NCBI RefSeq assembly: GCF_000772085.1 | Contig: NZ_CP009755.1 | Span: forward strand, 124,001-188,000 | Reading direction: 5' to 3' | Origin: Curtobacterium sp. MR_MD2014 | GTDB lineage: Bacteria; Actinomycetota; Actinomycetes; Actinomycetales; Microbacteriaceae | Length of the DNA: 64,000 nucleotides | Part shown: one piece after another, positions 36,878 to 51,562 of the stretch | Numbering within the stretch: position 1 is the first letter of the stretch | Layout of the letters: every line of letters starts with the position of its first letter | Program-made: the position numbers and the translations under genes | The notes under the pieces: generated by a model | What the model was told of the DNA's origin: nothing | What the model saw: the letters and a program-made list of their open reading frames with translations, nothing else | Databases searched by the model: none

Positions 36878-36958
36878 CGGTCCGGTCCGGCCTGGTCCGG
36901 TTCGGTCAGAGCTGGTCCGGTCCGGTCCGGTCAGGGCCGTCGGTGCCGGTTCCGGTCA
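36878..36958. repeat. GGTCCGGT simple-repeat tract
   Basis: About 80 bases built from GGTCCGGT, GGTTCGGT and TCAGAGCT units downstream of radA, including three perfect GGTCC units in a row. Probably slippage-generated; it contains no gene. Confidence 0.6.
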
Positions 36959-38317
36959 GAATGCGCGGTCGAGCTCGCGTTCACGGACCGACTGCGTCAG
37001 CGAGAACGCGACGCGCAGCGCCTCGCGCAGGTGCTCGGCGTCCGCGCCGAGCACGGTCGTGAACCCGAGCCGCGAGGCCTCGTTCGCCCGCTGCTTCGCG
37101 CCCGTCGCCGGACGGATCTCGCCGGCCAGACTGATCTCGCCCACCGCCGCCAGTGTGTGCGGGTACGGACGGTCCCGCGCAGCGCTCGCCAGGGCCAGCG
37201 CGATCGCCAGGTCGGCGCCAGGCTCGGTGAGCTTCATCCCGCCGACCGTCGAGACGTAGACGTCCGCATCGGACAGCTTGAGGCCGGCGCGTCGTTCGAG
37301 CACGGCGAGCAGCATCGCCACGCGTGACGCGTCGACGCCGTTCACGACCCGGCGCGGCTGCGGAGCCGAGCTCGGCACGACGAGCGCCTGCACCTCGACC
37401 GGGAGCGCACGGCGTCCTTCGAGTGCCACGGTCACGCACGTGCCCGACACCGGGGTGCCGTTCCGCGACATGAAGAGTCCGCTCGGGTCCGGGACCTCGT
37501 GGATGCCGTCGCCGGCCATGTCGAAGCAGCCGACCTCGTCTGTCGGGCCGAAGCGGTTCTTGAGCGCCCGGACGAACCGGAGCGCGGTCTGCCGGTCGCC
37601 CTCGAAGTGGCAGACGACGTCGACCAGGTGCTCGAGCAGTCGCGGACCCGCGATCGTGCCGTCCTTCGTGACGTGGCCGACGATGAGGACGGGCAGCGAC
37701 CGCTCCTTCGCCACCCGGATCAGGGTCGAGGCGACCTCGCGCACCTGGGAGGTGCCGCCGGCGATGCCGTCCACGGTGCTCGACGAGATCGTCTGCACGG
37801 AGTCGGCGATGACCAGGTCCGGTTGCACCTGGTCGATCTGGCCGAGGATGACGCCGAGGTCGACCTCGCTCGCCAGGTAGAGCTGGTCGTGCATGGCGTT
37901 CGTGCGCTCGGCGCGGAGTCGGACCTGGTCCACTGACTCCTCGGCGCTGACGTAGAGGACCCGCTTGCCGGTCGCTGCCGCACGGGAGGCGACCTCGAGC
38001 AGCAGTGTCGACTTGCCCACGCCCGGCTCGCCGGACAGCAGTACGGCGGCCCCGGGCACGATGCCGCCGCCGAGCACGCGGTCGAACTCGCCGATCCCGG
38101 ACGTCCACCGCTGGACCCCCGTTCCGCGGGCCTCGGTGATCGGTCGGGCCACGCGCGCTCCAGCGACGGAGACGGCAGCGGGCCCGCGCGAGCTCGCCGC
38201 GGCCGCCGTCGTGTCCTCGACCGTGCCCCACGCCTGGCACTCACCGCAGCGGCCGACCCACTTGATGCTGGTCCACCCGCACTCGGTGCAGCGGTAGAGG
38301 GACTGGGTGCGCGCCAT
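36956..38317 (-). CDS. radA: DNA repair protein RadA
   Basis: 453 residues. The N-terminal zinc finger has C10, C13, C24 and C27. The RecA-like ATPase has Walker A GEPGVGKST (96-104), and the RadA-specific KNRFG motif is at 253-257. The C-terminal Lon-like domain starts near 290. It is a DnaB-type helicase that drives branch migration in recombination. TAGCCT lies 6 bases before the ATG, so it has its own leaderless start although the SGNH hydrolase gene ends only 9 bases upstream. Confidence 0.97.
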   Translation of the reverse strand: MARTQSLYRCTECGWTSIKWVGRCGECQAWGTVEDTTAAAASSRGPAAVSVAGARVARPITEARGTGVQRWTSGIGEFDRVLGGGIVPGAAVLLSGEPGVGKSTLLLEVASRAAATGKRVLYVSAEESVDQVRLRAERTNAMHDQLYLASEVDLGVILGQIDQVQPDLVIADSVQTISSSTVDGIAGGTSQVREVASTLIRVAKERSLPVLIVGHVTKDGTIAGPRLLEHLVDVVCHFEGDRQTALRFVRALKNRFGPTDEVGCFDMAGDGIHEVPDPSGLFMSRNGTPVSGTCVTVALEGRRALPVEVQALVVPSSAPQPRRVVNGVDASRVAMLLAVLERRAGLKLSDADVYVSTVGGMKLTEPGADLAIALALASAARDRPYPHTLAAVGEISLAGEIRPATGAKQRANEASRLGFTTVLGADAEHLREALRVAFSLTQSVRERELDRAF

Positions 38318-39522: not shown

Positions 39523-39609
39523 GGTACCGTGTCCGAGCGGCCGAAGGATCATGTCTCGAAAACATGTGTGGGGGCAACTCCACCGTGGGTTCAAATCCCA
39601 CCGGTACCG
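39523..39609 (+). tRNA. tRNA-Ser (anticodon CGA)
   Basis: An 87-nt class II tRNA with acceptor GGTACCG/CGGTACC, anticodon loop CTCGAAA, a long variable arm (GTGGGGGCAACTCCACC region) and T-loop GGTTCAAATCC. CCA is encoded at 39610-39612. It marks the left side of the accessory region; tRNA-Ser genes are frequent integrase targets. Confidence 0.97.
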
Positions 39610-39615
39610 CCACAG

Positions 39616-39641
39616 AAAACCCCCGTTCACGCGGGGGTTTT
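39616..39641 (+). terminator. Terminator of tRNA-Ser
   Basis: AAAACCCCCG and CGGGGGTTTT arms around TTCA, giving an intrinsic terminator 4 bases after the encoded CCA. Confidence 0.9.
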
Positions 39642-39949: not shown

Positions 39950-42331
39950 ATGGCTCACCTTCTGGACTCTGCGAAGCTCGACGGACCTCATGCCGCACGC
40001 ATCAGTGCTCGGCCTGAGCGCATCGCTGTGCCACTTGACGCATCAAAGCAGGACGCCTTTAGACAAGCCGTTGAAGTGGAGTGTCAGGTTTGGGGTGGCG
40101 CAGCCAACGCTCTCCTGCCGGTGACGGCTGAGGGAGAAATCCCTGATTACTATCGGGGAGTGCTTCCTGGGTCGCAGATAGACCGAGTGGTTGGCGCCGG
40201 ACACGACCCGGAGATGTTGCTTCGAGATCTGCAGATAACAGGCGACCCACGCGATCTATCACGATCCCAGCTTGCCGTAAGCCTATTTGAGTACCAAAAT
40301 CAGAAGAAGTTCCCGCCACTGGAAGTTGTGCGCCTTGAAGCGGATGACCCCTGGAGAGATGTTTATTCCGCATGTTTGGGCCTTCTCCCGGACCACCCAA
40401 ACGCTGGTCTAATCTATTCCGGCGGCTGGCTACCTGACCTCGCCTTTGAGGATTTTCTGCAGGTTCGGCGGAGGGACGTGGAGGGGTCACTGGCGGATTT
40501 GATTTCGCGGCTCCGGCCGAAGGAGCCGATGTTGACGCCCCGCCAAGTCTCTATGGCTCGATTGTCCTATGCGAACACGGCCAGTAGTTATATCCGCACG
40601 GACAAGATCACCCTGCCTGACCCTGGTTTCGCGCGACGGGATGCGGGGCCGAACATCGTAGTCGTGTGCACGCCCGGGTCGAATGAGGATCTCGCTCTCT
40701 TGTGGAACTTGAGGGCAGCGCACGGAGACAATTATGTCACACCTCTCGGTATCCCTTCCGATGCGTTTACCGCGGAAGCAATACAGGAGATACTCTCCTC
40801 TCCAGGCGTGGCGCATCACGGCTTTGCCGTGTCATCTCTCTACGTCACAAGTGTGAGTGTCGATCAGGAAGTTCTGACGCAAGTTCTGATGGGCGTGTCG
40901 GGGGTAGCTGTCCGCCCTGCAGTCGACCTCTTGATGTTTGGAACTGTGTTTGGTTTGAGCCGGGATGAAATTCTCGTCTGGAAGGAGGGTCGGGCGTCTT
41001 ACAAGCCACTAGATGAGGCCTCGTACTACAACGTTCTAGGGACGAGAAACGTCAACGATCTGCTAGTGATGCATTATGACGTTTCACTAGATTCTGCCCC
41101 ACTACCTCAGAGCAGCGATTATCGCGTCGATCCGTACAACGGCTCATTCTACAACAATGCCCATACCGTCTGGTCCTCGCCTAGGTCCGGTTTCTCCATT
41201 AGCACCCTGCAATGGCCGTCTCGTGAGCTTGTTGCGAACAGCCTGGCGGCGATTCGCGGCTTCAAGCTCAGGGAGTCGGCGCCGGGTATTGCGGCCCGCA
41301 TTTTTATCGACATGCTCGGCGGACTGCCTGAAGCTCACATGCTTTGCCATGCGCCTTTGCTGCGACTTCTCGAGGAGATGGCGGCGCGGCAAGGCTTTCC
41401 TTGGTACAAAGCTGGCCTTCGACGACGGGGGATCGAAGTGTCGCCGATTGATGCGGTGGGAGGGTCCATCGATGAGCTCCCAGAGCGCTCTTTCCATGAG
41501 TTCAAACGAGTTCTCGGAAACAGTGATTTTGCGTCAAGATACTGGTTAGCGTGGGCAGAGAGGGCGAACGTACTAATCAAGGGGTTCCCGCTACAATGTC
41601 CGAACTGCGGTGCGAAGCAATGGATACCCGTCGGCAATTTCTCGCCCCCGATCGTCTGCCGAGGATGTACGGTCATCATTGAACGCCCTTTCGGTGACCG
41701 TACCTCCGTCGATTTCAAGTATCGATTGAGTGAGCAGGTGCGGCGCGTGTACGAGAGTGATGGAATGGGGCACATTCTCGTTGCTCGCTTCTTCTCTTTC
41801 CTATTCGACTTCGGCAGTCGTAGCGAGCTCATCGGCCTGCACCCCGGTATGAGCGTGAACCCGTCAAATGGCGGAGACGAGTTGGGCGAGGCCGACCTGC
41901 TGATGCTCACCCGCGGTGGGGACTTCGTACCCATCGAGGTGAAGCGAACTGCGTCTGGATTTACGCCGACGGAACTGGCTAAACTCTCTGCTCTGGCTGG
42001 AACGCTTAAGGCTCCTTGGAGTGGAGTCGCTGCTTGCCAGTACCGGTCCGAGGTAGATCTGGGTATGGACGAGTCGCTAGCGCTATTTAACAGTGATGGT
42101 TCTTATGATCGTGTATGGCTGACCTACGATCAGCTGCTTGAGGAGCATCCGATCTGGGCGTTAGGTGGTGATCCGTTCGAGTTGCGCTCGATGTCGCGAG
42201 ACGAAATTGATGTCAGGGAGGCCGCCTTCGTTACGATGTTGGTGACGCGGGCAAAGGAGAATCAGGGCGACTGGCTGACTTATTCCATGCTGCGAAGGAG
42301 AGGTGACAGCGCCATCGACCGAGGCGAATGA
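39950..42331 (+). CDS. Large unknown protein with zinc ribbon and PD-(D/E)xK-like C-terminus
   Basis: 793 residues, no family recognised as a whole. Residues 1-540 show no clear motif; NIVVVCTPGSNEDLALLWNL (about 238) may be a Rossmann-like strand-helix. A zinc ribbon is formed by CPNC (550-553) and CRGC (570-573). After it, GEADLLML (E647, D649) and FVPIEVKR (E663, K665) read as the acidic pair and ExK of a PD-(D/E)xK nuclease. It may therefore cut DNA or be a sensor with a nuclease end. Base use is strikingly poorer in GC than its neighbours, indicating recent transfer. Its stop overlaps the CoiA-like start (ATGA). Confidence 0.7.
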   Translation: MAHLLDSAKLDGPHAARISARPERIAVPLDASKQDAFRQAVEVECQVWGGAANALLPVTAEGEIPDYYRGVLPGSQIDRVVGAGHDPEMLLRDLQITGDPRDLSRSQLAVSLFEYQNQKKFPPLEVVRLEADDPWRDVYSACLGLLPDHPNAGLIYSGGWLPDLAFEDFLQVRRRDVEGSLADLISRLRPKEPMLTPRQVSMARLSYANTASSYIRTDKITLPDPGFARRDAGPNIVVVCTPGSNEDLALLWNLRAAHGDNYVTPLGIPSDAFTAEAIQEILSSPGVAHHGFAVSSLYVTSVSVDQEVLTQVLMGVSGVAVRPAVDLLMFGTVFGLSRDEILVWKEGRASYKPLDEASYYNVLGTRNVNDLLVMHYDVSLDSAPLPQSSDYRVDPYNGSFYNNAHTVWSSPRSGFSISTLQWPSRELVANSLAAIRGFKLRESAPGIAARIFIDMLGGLPEAHMLCHAPLLRLLEEMAARQGFPWYKAGLRRRGIEVSPIDAVGGSIDELPERSFHEFKRVLGNSDFASRYWLAWAERANVLIKGFPLQCPNCGAKQWIPVGNFSPPIVCRGCTVIIERPFGDRTSVDFKYRLSEQVRRVYESDGMGHILVARFFSFLFDFGSRSELIGLHPGMSVNPSNGGDELGEADLLMLTRGGDFVPIEVKRTASGFTPTELAKLSALAGTLKAPWSGVAACQYRSEVDLGMDESLALFNSDGSYDRVWLTYDQLLEEHPIWALGGDPFELRSMSRDEIDVREAAFVTMLVTRAKENQGDWLTYSMLRRRGDSAIDRGE

Positions 42332-43452
42332 CACAGATGGCGTATGACTCAGTCACCGGCGACATCGTCGGCGTTTGGATCTACGATGCGCGAGTGGGGA
42401 CGCCGGACCAAGACGCGCAGCACCTCGCCAGGTTCGTGCGCGGAGGCGAGCGGCGGTTCATCTACGGCGCACGGCGTCACGGCGCACCTGGGCTTGTACT
42501 ACTTCCCGAGAGAGCAGCCGAGGCCCGACGGGCACCGACGAAGAGCGAGCTGATGTGTCCGGTGCCAGGCTGCCCGATGCCGGACTTCACCACGGTCGAC
42601 CGGAGCAGGGCGGGTCGGCGGGATGGGTACCGACACCTGGCAACGAGTGTCGATCACGGCGCGGAGCGGATGCACCACGTGCTCGCGAAGGGGCTCCTGG
42701 CCCGGTGGGCCCGATGGGCGGTGCCCGGGGCCACCGGTATCGAGGAACACCCGTCGAATGATGCCCGCGAGCGGATCGCTGACGTCATGGTAAGACTGCC
42801 CGGTGGGGCGCAGTTCGCGCTCGAGGTGCAGTACTCCGCGCTCAGCGTTGAGGCGTGGCGAGAACGGCACGAGTCCTACCGGCGCGACGGCATCATCGAT
42901 GTGTGGCTCTTCGGCCACGCCGGCGCACAGTCACGGTGGCGAGACGGGGTGATGTACCTCAACGCTACCCAGCGGGAGATCGCGGCGTCAGGGGCACCGG
43001 TGCTTTGGATCAACCCGCTCACGGAGGAGGTCGCGTACGCGACGAGCACGGCGTGGTCGAGCGGGCGCGCGACGATCATTCCGCTGGAGGAGGGTCCGCT
43101 TCGCGTCGTGCCGCTGACGCAGTGGCGACTCCTTGAGGACGGGATGTTCACGCGGGAGCTCGTCGAACTCAGGGACACCACCGTTGCGCACCTGGCCCGT
43201 GAGGCAGCGGCCTCTGTCGCGCGGGCCGCCGACGAGGCCGCTCGACAGGCGTTGCGAGAGCAGATCGTCGTGGCACGGGAGCGCGATCACGAAGCGTGGT
43301 TGGCGAGCAGCGAGCGGGCTGCCGCGATGGCCGCGGTGGGGGGAGTGGCCAACGTGGCTCGCCGGCGAGGACCCGGTCGGTTCGCGGGTCTCGGGCGAGC
43401 GCTGGCGCTGGTTCCTCTGGTCGGAGGTGATCCGGCCAATCGCGAAGGATGA
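42328..43452 (+). CDS. CoiA-like nuclease-domain protein, frame as read
   Basis: 374 residues as the sequence stands. N-terminal Cys pairs (CPVPGCPMPDF) precede the CoiA domain: YRHLATSVDHGAERMHHVLAKGLL, then RIADVMVRLPGGAQFALEVQYSALSVEAW, where D and E-x-Q are the modified PD-(D/E)xK residues, then YRRDGIIDVWLFG. A long Ala/Glu/Arg helix follows. CoiA acts in competence, but CoiA-like domains also occur in defence loci. At a G6 run (43338-43343) the reading changes: the sense-bearing frame continues at +1 to 43945, so this frame's last 36 residues are probably artefactual. ATG 42328 overlaps the upstream stop, so translation is coupled. Confidence 0.75.
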   Translation: MTQMAYDSVTGDIVGVWIYDARVGTPDQDAQHLARFVRGGERRFIYGARRHGAPGLVLLPERAAEARRAPTKSELMCPVPGCPMPDFTTVDRSRAGRRDGYRHLATSVDHGAERMHHVLAKGLLARWARWAVPGATGIEEHPSNDARERIADVMVRLPGGAQFALEVQYSALSVEAWRERHESYRRDGIIDVWLFGHAGAQSRWRDGVMYLNATQREIAASGAPVLWINPLTEEVAYATSTAWSSGRATIIPLEEGPLRVVPLTQWRLLEDGMFTRELVELRDTTVAHLAREAAASVARAADEAARQALREQIVVARERDHEAWLASSERAAAMAAVGGVANVARRRGPGRFAGLGRALALVPLVGGDPANREG

Positions 43453-43945
43453 GCGCGTTCGCTCAAGCGACCTGCTCGCGAAGCTGGTCACACGATTTGG
43501 CGACGTCGTTGGGGTCGTCAAGCCAGGCGCACCGGGGGGATCCCTACGAGCGGCTGTGATCGCCATGCTGAGCGCGATGCAGCGGCCGAGCCTGGCGTCC
43601 CGGCATGAGCAGAAGCGCTTCGGTGTGAAGCGTTTCTGGTTCACGAGGGGCAGCGTTCGCGAGCCGCTGACGCCAGAGCAGCGTGCGGAGGTCATGCGGC
43701 GGGCGTCGGAGCGCGAGGCGAGCCTTGCTGGCGGCAGCGGAAGCACGACGTCGAGTACCGACTACCGGCGCGGCCCTGGCGCGTTCACGGGCAGCTCTCG
43801 GCGACTGCTCCCCGACCTGTCGCCTGTGTCGTCGACCTTCAGGGTGCCGGGACCGGGCGAACGCGCGTGCGCGCGCTGTGGGCTCCCGGTCGCGACGTTC
43901 CTCGTCGAACAGGGACTGCTGACGCATCCTGTGTGCTCGCGCTGA
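43340..43945 (+). pseudogene. Detached C-terminal part of the CoiA-like protein
   Basis: About 200 codons in the +1 frame relative to the CoiA-like gene: EWPTWLAGEDPVGSRVSGER, a basic central region (RHEQKRFGVKRFWFTRG), and a C-terminal CARCGLPVATFLVEQGLLTHPVC that looks like a small zinc finger. There is no start signal of its own. Removing one G from the G6 run joins it to the upstream frame to make one protein of about 538 residues. Confidence 0.7.
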
Positions 43946-44000: not shown

Positions 44001-44222
44001 TCAGTGCGCGGCGTCATACGCATCGCGCACGGTCTGCGCGATGCGTATGACGGCTGGAAACCTCCCAGGGGCGGCCGTCTTCCCGCCCGGGCCGGCGAAT
44101 CCGATCGTGACGTCCTCCCACGAGGCGAAGAGCGGATGCGGGTCGGGCTCGTCTGGTAGTCCGGTCAAGCTCGGCGCGACGACGACCGCATCACACCTGA
44201 TCGTTGCGAAGCCGCTGTTCTA
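44001..44222 (-). pseudogene. Fragment ending in an Lsr2-like tail
   Basis: An open frame without a start codon that ends RIAQTVRDAYDAAH, one residue different from the Lsr2 C-terminus at 46908 (RIAQSVRDAYDAAH). The residues before it (DEPDPHPLFASWEDVTIGFA) are not Lsr2-like. It may be a relic of a second lsr2 copy joined to other sequence by deletion. Confidence 0.55.
44013..44051. repeat. Perfect 39-base palindrome
   Basis: GTCATACGCATCGCGCA, a 5-base centre, and the exact complement. It overlaps the Lsr2-like tail and lies between convergent genes, so it probably acts as a terminator for both. Confidence 0.75.
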
Positions 44223-46907: not shown

Positions 46908-47258
46908 TCAGTGCGCCGCGTCGTAGGCGTCGCGGACGCTCTGTGCGATGCGACCGCGGGTGGAGACCTCGTAGCCATTGGCGTTGGCCCACTCGCGGAT
47001 CTTCGCGAGCTCGTCCGCATTCCCGCGAGGCTTCGAGGCAGACCCGGAAGAAGTGGGTCGAGAAGCGCTCGCGCCGACCTTGCGGGCTGCTGCGATGTAG
47101 TCGGAGAACGCCTCGCGGAACTTGTCCGCGTTGTCGTTCGACAGGTCGATCTCGTAGTTGTTGCCGTCGAAGCCGAAGTGCACCGTGGTGCCGGCGCCGT
47201 CCTGCAGCTCTTCGTCGGTGAGGTCGTCGACGAGGGTGGTGATGACTTTCTGCGCCAT
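46908..47258 (-). CDS. lsr2: Lsr2 family nucleoid-associated protein
   Basis: 116 residues. The N-terminal dimerisation domain (AQKVITTLVDDLTDEELQDG, VHFGFDGNNYEIDLS) is followed by a linker and the C-terminal AT-hook-like domain with a GYEVSTRGRI segment, where RGR enters the minor groove of AT-rich DNA. It silences foreign, AT-rich genes, which fits its place in a lower-GC island. A GGAGAAT site precedes the ATG. The island copy may be additional to a chromosomal one. Confidence 0.94.
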   Translation of the reverse strand: MAQKVITTLVDDLTDEELQDGAGTTVHFGFDGNNYEIDLSNDNADKFREAFSDYIAAARKVGASASRPTSSGSASKPRGNADELAKIREWANANGYEVSTRGRIAQSVRDAYDAAH

Positions 47259-47514: not shown

Positions 47515-48005
47515 CGGACCGGGTGTACCACTTTTGCGTTCAGAAACCGGTACAGGCCCACGAGGCAGCTTTCCCCAGGTCAAACCGGCTTTTGAGGGCT
47601 CGTGCAGGTGTGAGTCGTGTACCAGTTCTGAGCCGTGATTTTCGAGAACCGGTACCCCCCGTGAGCCCTACTTCCCTGATTTCTCAAGGAAGTAGAAGGG
47701 TAGAGAGGCAGTTTGTACCGGTTGTACCGGTTTCTGCGGACCTCTACGCGCGCATGCGCGCATGCGCGCACACGCACACGCACACGCACACGCATAGAGT
47801 TCCCTCGAAAAAGCGGTACAGCTGGTACAGGGCGTGCTTTCCCCTGATCAGATCCGGTTTCAGGCCGTCCTGCGTCGGGTACGCGAAGTGGAACACCGCG
47901 AGCCCAGGACCGGTGAGGCGGCCAGGACTCGCCGCCTGAACTGGGCTTTTCGTTGCGTCGTCGAGCGCGAGCGTGTACCGAGAAATCCGGTACAAACCGG
48001 TACGA
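47515..48005. repeat. GTACCGGT-type repeat cluster with a CA tract
   Basis: At least eight occurrences of GGTAC/GTACC in AACCGGTACA-like or TGTACCGGTT contexts, including the direct pair TGTACCGGTTGTACCGGTT near 47715 and AATCCGGTACAAACCGGTAC near 47985. A CGCATGCGCGCATGCGCGCA palindrome and six CACACG units lie at 47751-47791. No convincing gene overlaps this 890-base gap (47259-48146). The layout resembles iterons, but no replication gene is near. Confidence 0.55.
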
Positions 48006-50470: not shown

Positions 50471-51562
50471 ATGGGAACAGTCAAGTCCTACGAGACGAAG
50501 ACGCGGGGCAAGCTTTACGAGGTCTGGTACACCAAACCTGATGGGACTCGCGGTCATGACCGCGGCTTCCGCCGCAAGACCGATGCCTTCAACTACCTCA
50601 ACACTGTCGAGGTGTCGAAGTTGCGAGGTTCCTACGTCGATCCAACGGATGCGCGAGTGACCATCGGCGAGCTCGGGAGAGCCTGGCTCGAGATGCACCG
50701 GTTCAAGCTCACCCAAAGTAGCTTCCACTCCGTTGAAAGCTGCTGGCGCGTGCATGTCGAACCAAAGTGGGGCGGGTACGCCGTAGGCCGAGTCACCAAG
50801 CGAGACGTCCAAACGTGGCTGAACGAACTCGGGCATTCGCTCTCGCACACCTCGGTGGCGAGGGCACGAGACCTGCTCGCTGGCATCCTCGATGAAGCCG
50901 TCGAGGAGAACCGGGTGGTGAAGAATCCTGCGCGCGGCCTCACAGTCAAGAAGAAACCGATCCCCGACGAGGTGTTCCTGACGCATCGGCAGGTCGAGGC
51001 GCTGGCTTCGGAGGCCAGGTATGGCGAGCTTGTCCGGCTACTTGCGTACACCGGGCTCCGATGGGGCGAGGCGACTGCCTTGCGGGTTCGTAGCGTTGAC
51101 CCCGGTCGACGTCGTCTGAACATCCGCGAGGGAGTGACGGAGGTGAACGGTCAACACGTCCTGGGCAGTGTGAAGTCGCATGAGCGGCGCTCCGTCGCAT
51201 TTCCTGACTTCCTCGACTCGGCTGTTGCCGCGGCCTGTCGAGACAAGCACCCCGACGATCGTCTCTGGTCGTCTTCGGCCGGAGGTTTCCTCCGGCCAGG
51301 GCACTCCAGTCAGGGATGGTTCGCGAAGGCCGTCCAGCGGACGATGGCGGCCGACGCAAGCTTCCGTCGAGTCACACCACATGACCTCCGGCATACCGCT
51401 GCGTCACTCGCGATCAGCGCTGGTGCCAACGTCAAAGTCGTACAGCGGATGCTGGGCCACAAGTCGGCGAAGGTGACTCTTGACACCTACGCGGCGCTGT
51501 TCCCCGACGATCTGGACAACGTTACCTCCGCGTTGAGCCGGCAACGAGCGGAACAGCTGTAG
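50471..51562 (+). CDS. Tyrosine recombinase/phage-type integrase
   Basis: 363 residues. An N-terminal arm-binding domain (KLYEVWYTKPDGTRGHDRGF) and SAM-like core-binding domain (TIGELGRAWLEMH) precede the catalytic domain with R197 (TGLRWGE), H304 and R307 (HDLRHT), H330 (LGHKS) and nucleophile Y340 (LDTYAALF). All key residues are present, so the enzyme should be active. The stop at 51562 is followed by a GTGGTCGTGCTCGTGGTCGT tandem tract. It is paired with the excisionase upstream. It very likely mobilised some or all of the accessory region; the att site is not identified. Confidence 0.95.
   Translation: MGTVKSYETKTRGKLYEVWYTKPDGTRGHDRGFRRKTDAFNYLNTVEVSKLRGSYVDPTDARVTIGELGRAWLEMHRFKLTQSSFHSVESCWRVHVEPKWGGYAVGRVTKRDVQTWLNELGHSLSHTSVARARDLLAGILDEAVEENRVVKNPARGLTVKKKPIPDEVFLTHRQVEALASEARYGELVRLLAYTGLRWGEATALRVRSVDPGRRRLNIREGVTEVNGQHVLGSVKSHERRSVAFPDFLDSAVAAACRDKHPDDRLWSSSAGGFLRPGHSSQGWFAKAVQRTMAADASFRRVTPHDLRHTAASLAISAGANVKVVQRMLGHKSAKVTLDTYAALFPDDLDNVTSALSRQRAEQL

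Follow-up and report, generated by a model that had tools for sequence, protein, structure and literature searches.

Card1/Can2-type nucleases are executors that await a signal from type III CRISPR (clustered regularly interspaced short palindromic repeats). Here we consider a solitary gene of Curtobacterium sp. MR_MD2014, lying in a stretch of 64,000 nucleotides (the window; contig NZ_CP009755.1, positions 124,001 to 188,000, numbered below from its first letter). It encodes a member of an unnamed family with a four-cysteine motif and a predicted Card1/Can2/VC1899-type module, and we lean towards reading it as a lone defence nuclease, switched on during infection via its N-terminal domain. 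Sequence comparison establishes the family itself with its conserved cysteines and both motifs, ExD and ExK, as well as the repeats and integrase around the gene; it also shows that no partner recurs in the loci compared and that a Cas10 palm or SMODS domain is not detectable in its own genome. The folds of the nuclease protein are predictions. The closest described relative by predicted fold is VC1899 of Vibrio cholerae, presented in PMC7969007 as an uncharacterised orphan CARF nuclease without type III CRISPR; it shows that CRISPR-free members exist in the Can2/Card1 group.

An unnamed nuclease family and its predicted fold

The gene and its parts are arranged as follows:

39950..42331, + strand: solitary nuclease gene, 793 residues (open reading frame (ORF); family comparison)
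39950..40954, + strand: N-terminal sensor-like half, residues 1-335 (model and alignment; presumed function)
41309..41758, + strand: winged-helix-like module, approximately residues 454-603, into which the zinc ribbon is set (predicted structure)
41597..41668, + strand: zinc ribbon, residues 550-573, with C550, C553, C570 and C573 (alignment; putative zinc binding)
41759..42184, + strand: predicted PD-(D/E)xK catalytic core, approximately residues 604-745 (model, fold matches)
41888..41896, + strand: first catalytic motif, E647-x-D649 (alignment)
41936..41944, + strand: second catalytic motif, E663-x-K665 (alignment)

The initial annotation, made from the sequence of the window, had described an unrecognised protein of 793 residues with a zinc ribbon at 550-573 and an ExK site at 663-665, and each of these elements is borne out. 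The frame is open, and no model library searched gives it a name: there are zero matches up to E = 1 among Pfam and PADLOC models, and the sole NCBIfam match, to ribosomal S27e, lies over the zinc ribbon and scores 11 bits against a cut-off of 70. The complete genome, of 3.44 Mb, has a single copy of the gene. When 5.8 billion clustered proteins were searched, with scoring limited to the 7994 candidates sharing most words, at least 147 relatives emerged at E <= 1e-3, whose named source organisms are in every case actinobacteria. Most aligned relatives open with the same consensus, MxxLLDxExLxGPH, and the start codon is therefore probably right. The family is thinly spread, with a relative in 2 of the 398 sampled genomes of the host's taxonomic family and 21 named loci from a scan of species genomes; it is absent from the phage records of the collection searched.

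Conservation was assessed in an alignment of 128 sequences (the window protein, 119 listed proteins and 8 distant locus proteins). Five residues, D247, W252, N253, R255 and S301, are invariant in all 128, and T300 is kept in 127; the five fall within a predicted Rossmann-like alpha/beta unit at approximately residues 226-333, and the motifs of this N-terminal domain read D-x2-LLWNLR and TS. In the C-terminal half, C550 and C553 are kept in 126 of the 128 sequences and C570 and C573 in 125, whilst E647 and D649 persist in 123 and E663 and K665 in 124. Departures at the catalytic and cysteine sites are confined to six rows, four of them mainly through gaps (short entries in three cases), and other residues stand in P0045 at D649 and in P0117 at several of these sites. 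P0117 (Microbacterium sp. NPDC008134, 826 residues), the only one of the best 120 of the 147 relatives to carry a Pfam domain, keeps the family's N-terminal half but has PF14311 zinc-ribbon repeats in place of the nuclease module, possibly a module swap.

In the structural model, the strands bearing residues 646-654 and 659-665 sit in a core of PD-(D/E)xK type; a nuclease fold is thus predicted at 640-670, so that a structure lacking one there, which the initial annotation had named as a refuting result, did not come up. Its description of an unrecognised zinc-ribbon PD-(D/E)xK protein, probably serving in defence, is right. The best Foldseek match is VC1899 (E 2.3e-5). The E647-x-D649 pattern is the same as E291/D293 of VC1899 and E276/D278 of Can2, and E663-x-K665 the same as E302/K304 of TsuCan2 (PMC7969007). 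A C-terminal PD-(D/E)xK module with ExD/E and ExK is, on the predicted fold, common to the family protein and the Can2/Card1 (DUF1887) CARF nucleases.

Could the protein instead be a restriction-type enzyme, one that recognises foreign or modified DNA directly through its N-terminal half and winged-helix/zinc-ribbon module and cuts it with the nuclease, with no small-molecule signal? We judge this rather unlikely, though it is the strongest rival. The fold matches to Card1, Can2, Cdn1 and VC1899 are clearly stronger than any to restriction enzymes, with EcoT38I, PaqCI and AspBHI returning lower Z scores; no neighbouring gene recurs beside the family, hence no methyltransferase; and the most constant residues lie in the Rossmann-like unit, which is not a known DNA-reading fold.

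Nonetheless, the family protein departs from Can2, Card1 and Cdn1 in several respects. It is about twice as long, with an extra N-terminal region and a conserved four-cysteine motif, and shares no detectable sequence similarity with them, the Card1_endonuc Pfam model remaining unmatched up to E = 1. VC1899 is a chain of 380 residues, against 793 here, without a sequence match to the family protein, and the main text of PMC7969007 makes no mention of zinc. We therefore describe the protein as Can2-like by predicted fold and active site, and do not file it as a Can2 member in view of its sequence, its length, its four-cysteine motif, an unconfirmed CARF domain and the missing Cas10.

Signal source and genomic company

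Can2, Card1 and Cdn1 belong to type III CRISPR, whereas Cas10 is not detectable in the genome studied here: a search for its palm domain (PF22335) found nothing. Among 22 family-bearing genomes, several of them drafts, PF22335 was matched at E <= 1e-3 in only two, above the cut-off in the genome of L022 and below it in that of L006. For CBASS (cyclic-oligonucleotide-based antiphage signalling system) effectors, a SMODS cyclase would be expected in the same genome, yet PF18144 was found in none of the 22, in a cyclase search limited to the Cas10 palm and SMODS. The Card1_endonuc model itself, PF09002, was likewise unmatched in the host genome, and the same search gave a match in only 1 of 14 control genomes, below the cut-off. 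If the protein is ligand-gated, then, its ligand is probably not made by Cas10 or SMODS enzymes.

These searches bear directly on the idea of a divergent Can2, that is, an effector of cyclic oligoadenylate or another cyclic nucleotide made elsewhere in the cell. The nuclease module is as in Can2, and whole-model Foldseek alignments to four Can2/Card1 chains extend over 485-557 columns (at a root-mean-square deviation of 16-20 A), which, together with four VIA rows starting from model residue 73-74, would let part of the N-terminal half align with CARF. At 236-351, the succession of strands and helices is also compatible with a CARF-like unit. Against this stand the lack of a Cas10 palm in the host genome and of any above the cut-off in 21 of the 22 genomes, the absence of SMODS from all 22, and an N-terminal domain that on its own finds no CARF match, and we hold a divergent Can2 to be very doubtful.

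The family also appears to be solitary, since no other gene is shared by more than 3 of 26 loci (counting the window, and four loci whose flanks are short; shadow ORFs within the nuclease gene were not counted). We collected 96 neighbour proteins from 21 loci and scanned 39 of them, chosen by size and position, singly against PADLOC; 16 of the 39 matched a model at E <= 1e-10. At E <= 1e-50, at least 8 of the 21 loci carry a matching neighbour, compared with none of 12 control stretches:

L006: PDC-S02
L007: HEC-06
L011: Cas3-like
L013: PD-Lambda-1
L014: type IIG restriction enzyme and TmtA
L015: PDC-S37/Hhe-like
L025: type IIG
L026: type I R, S and M

Weaker matches come from L006 (a second gene), L009 (OLD-like ATPase), L024 (JetD-like), L010 and L018 (transposition protein), and a joint tally of the 96 neighbours adds strong matches without locus placement, including GajA at E 4.4e-203. 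At 1e-5 the 96 neighbours match 434 PADLOC models and 94 control proteins from the 12 stretches match 37, counts that overlap between related models inflates, a single specificity subunit matching 97 of them. The best E-value shown by a control protein is 1.3e-45, and controls too match several models at E <= 1e-10. Moreover, 23 of the 39 singly scanned neighbours, a non-random choice, are without a match at 1e-10; the controls were taken at arbitrary positions along contig 1 in 12 genomes, as largest ORFs under a different size rule; and ORFs for both sets were drawn by a crude caller based on codon bias. The comparison of loci, 8 of 21 against 0 of 12, is safer than that of model counts, even with the 39 chosen non-randomly.

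The probable integrated element and the CoiA-like neighbour

Several features place the gene within what appears to be an integrated element:

39523..39612, + strand: serine transfer RNA (tRNA-Ser), anticodon cga, its 3' end the likely integration site (ARAGORN)
39586..39617, + strand: left-hand copy of a perfect direct repeat of 32 bp, at the tRNA-Ser 3' end (repeat search)
46908..47258, - strand: Lsr2 protein (PF11774, PF23359), between the repeat copies (Pfam)
50471..51562, + strand: tyrosine recombinase, Phage_integrase PF00589, between the repeat copies (Pfam)

The repeat consists of the last 27 bases of tRNA-Ser and 5 more, and its right copy lies at genome position 190087, equivalent to window positions 66087-66118 (L031) and thus 2.1 kb beyond the window end. 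The copies bound 26.5 kb, with genes for an ArsP_1 permease and for a DUF4396 protein in the right part; Lsr2 proteins act as xenogeneic silencers. This stretch is likely a mobile island, and given the tRNA-Ser repeat copies and the recombinase, the nuclease gene, separated by 337 bases from the tRNA-Ser upstream, likely sits just inside its left end. At 47750-47775, an overlapping 20-nt palindrome of alternating GC-rich sequence adjoins low-complexity sequence, one frame of which reads HTHTHT.

Perhaps, then, the gene serves the island, by excluding rival elements or plasmids or by stabilising it, or is a general DNA-repair nuclease? Either role seems distinctly unlikely to us: the family is rare and scattered, unlike a repair gene, its relatives accompany phage-defence genes, and it is missing from every phage record in the collection. 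The readings do overlap, as a gene that excludes plasmids may stop phages too.

The initial annotation had ascribed foreign base composition to this gene and to the CoiA-like gene that follows it, and had proposed the two, coupled through an ATGA overlap, as an operon and new defence pair:

42328..43452, + strand: CoiA-like ORF, 374 residues (Pfam; similarity from 42346 or 42394 to 43317, then frame broken)
43340..43945, + strand: remaining C-terminal part of the CoiA-like gene, in a different frame (match to relatives)

As for composition, the claim holds for the nuclease gene, whose guanine plus cytosine (G+C) content is 56.8%, against a minimum of 64.9% among sampled stretches of the same length in window positions 1-39.4 kb, and whose third-position G+C is 62%, against 92% in a host-type gene at 36956-38317. 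It fails for the CoiA part, which at 69% is near the 71% of positions 1-39.5 kb.

The second ORF does carry CoiA_nuc (PF06054; E 2e-8, 35 bits against a cut-off of 20.3), so that its likeness to CoiA stands, but the gene is not intact. Three relatives of 517-571 residues, P0122, P0123 and P0125, match frame 1 up to 43317 and frame 2 at 43340-43942, the frame 1 match beginning at 42346 for the first two and at 42427 for P0125; P0128 matches the region in both frames and P0133 in frame 1 only. Because relatives switch from frame 1 to frame 2, the ORF of 374 residues ends in a wrong tail, with the remainder in the other frame. By this comparison, the CoiA-like gene is broken at 43317-43340, and intact relatives of 517-571 residues exist. 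Just 3' of it, at 44012-44052, lies an 18-nt perfect inverted repeat with 5 nt between its arms.

The ATGA overlap is real as a pair of ORF boundaries, though translational coupling probably is not. P0128 starts at the equivalent of window position 42394, a GTG codon, and in 18 of 18 other matching genomes (12 of them at E below 1e-30) the CoiA similarity sets in no earlier than query residue 26, for which reason the overlap is probably an accident of the junction. The similarity of P0122 and P0123, reaching up to 42346, counts against such an accident; their residues upstream of that point resemble none of the three window frames, and hence not the end of the nuclease gene.

A two-gene defence system of zinc-ribbon nuclease and CoiA-like nuclease would draw on the touching ORFs, on the predicted membership of both proteins in the PD-(D/E)xK superfamily, within which CoiA is listed in PMC1913061, and on a CoiA-domain protein among the systems of a phage-defence screen, as reported in PMC9519451. 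However, none of 25 nuclease-family loci (L002-L026) holds a CoiA relative, and none of 21 CoiA loci holds a member of the nuclease family (tblastn E <= 1 in both; at most 1.5 kb of flank per side in the latter). Homologues are therefore found apart, the result that the initial annotation had itself named as refuting the pair. The CoiA query was matched in 19 of 396 sampled genomes of the host's taxonomic family and in 4 of 66 of its genus, the host included, and the host alone, among the genomes listed, has both genes. With the difference in G+C (56.8 against 69%) and the broken frame of a separate gene, the pair is refuted as a conserved system within the compared loci and hardly credible as a system at all; the CoiA-like gene is probably a chance neighbour and no partner of the nuclease.

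A putative lone nuclease and its trigger

How might such a nuclease work? An infection-linked small molecule or a phage component may be bound by the Rossmann-like domain of the N-terminal half, which carries the D-x2-LLWNLR and TS motifs. Binding would then join two nuclease modules and complete the metal site, by analogy with what is described for Cdn1, whilst the winged-helix and zinc-ribbon module would hold nucleic acid. Cleavage of DNA or RNA could keep the phage from spreading, perhaps at the cell's expense, and CoiA would take no part.

Several points weigh against the view of a lone, infection-triggered defence nuclease, besides the limits of the PADLOC comparison given above. Searched alone, residues 1-452 have no Foldseek match that reaches E <= 0.001, and the listed rows, among which there is no CARF chain, offer weak matches of Rossmann type that fall on 226-333; N-terminal gating is thus inferred from the nuclease half. 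The family profile found no significant PDB sequence, leaving the link to Can2 and Card1 without support at the sequence level. Relatives are damaged in 6 of the 21 named loci, namely L015 (the same locus as L029/L030), L017, L022, L023, L024 and L026, with five split over two ORFs and one matched over residues 1-400 only; some copies of the family are therefore dead, and such frequent breakage fits a costly gene or shifting selection. Finally, CARF homologues outside CRISPR are reportedly abundant (PMC12669027), which lessens the surprise; with these and the orphan VC1899 on record, the novelty lies in the family, its sensor and its setting.

We could go further and speculate, tentatively, that this is an actinobacterial single-gene immune nuclease, in which a Card1/Can2-type killing module has been uncoupled from CRISPR and given a new sensor of its own, the Rossmann-like domain with the D-x2-LLWNLR and TS motifs, so that one protein both detects infection and executes the response. 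A conserved, solitary family with a Card1/Can2-like predicted module, found among defence genes and with no Cas10 above the cut-off in 21 of 22 genomes, offers a tractable case for asking what triggers an orphan nuclease. If its sensor binds a new infection signal, this would add a further signal-receptor pair to bacterial immunity.

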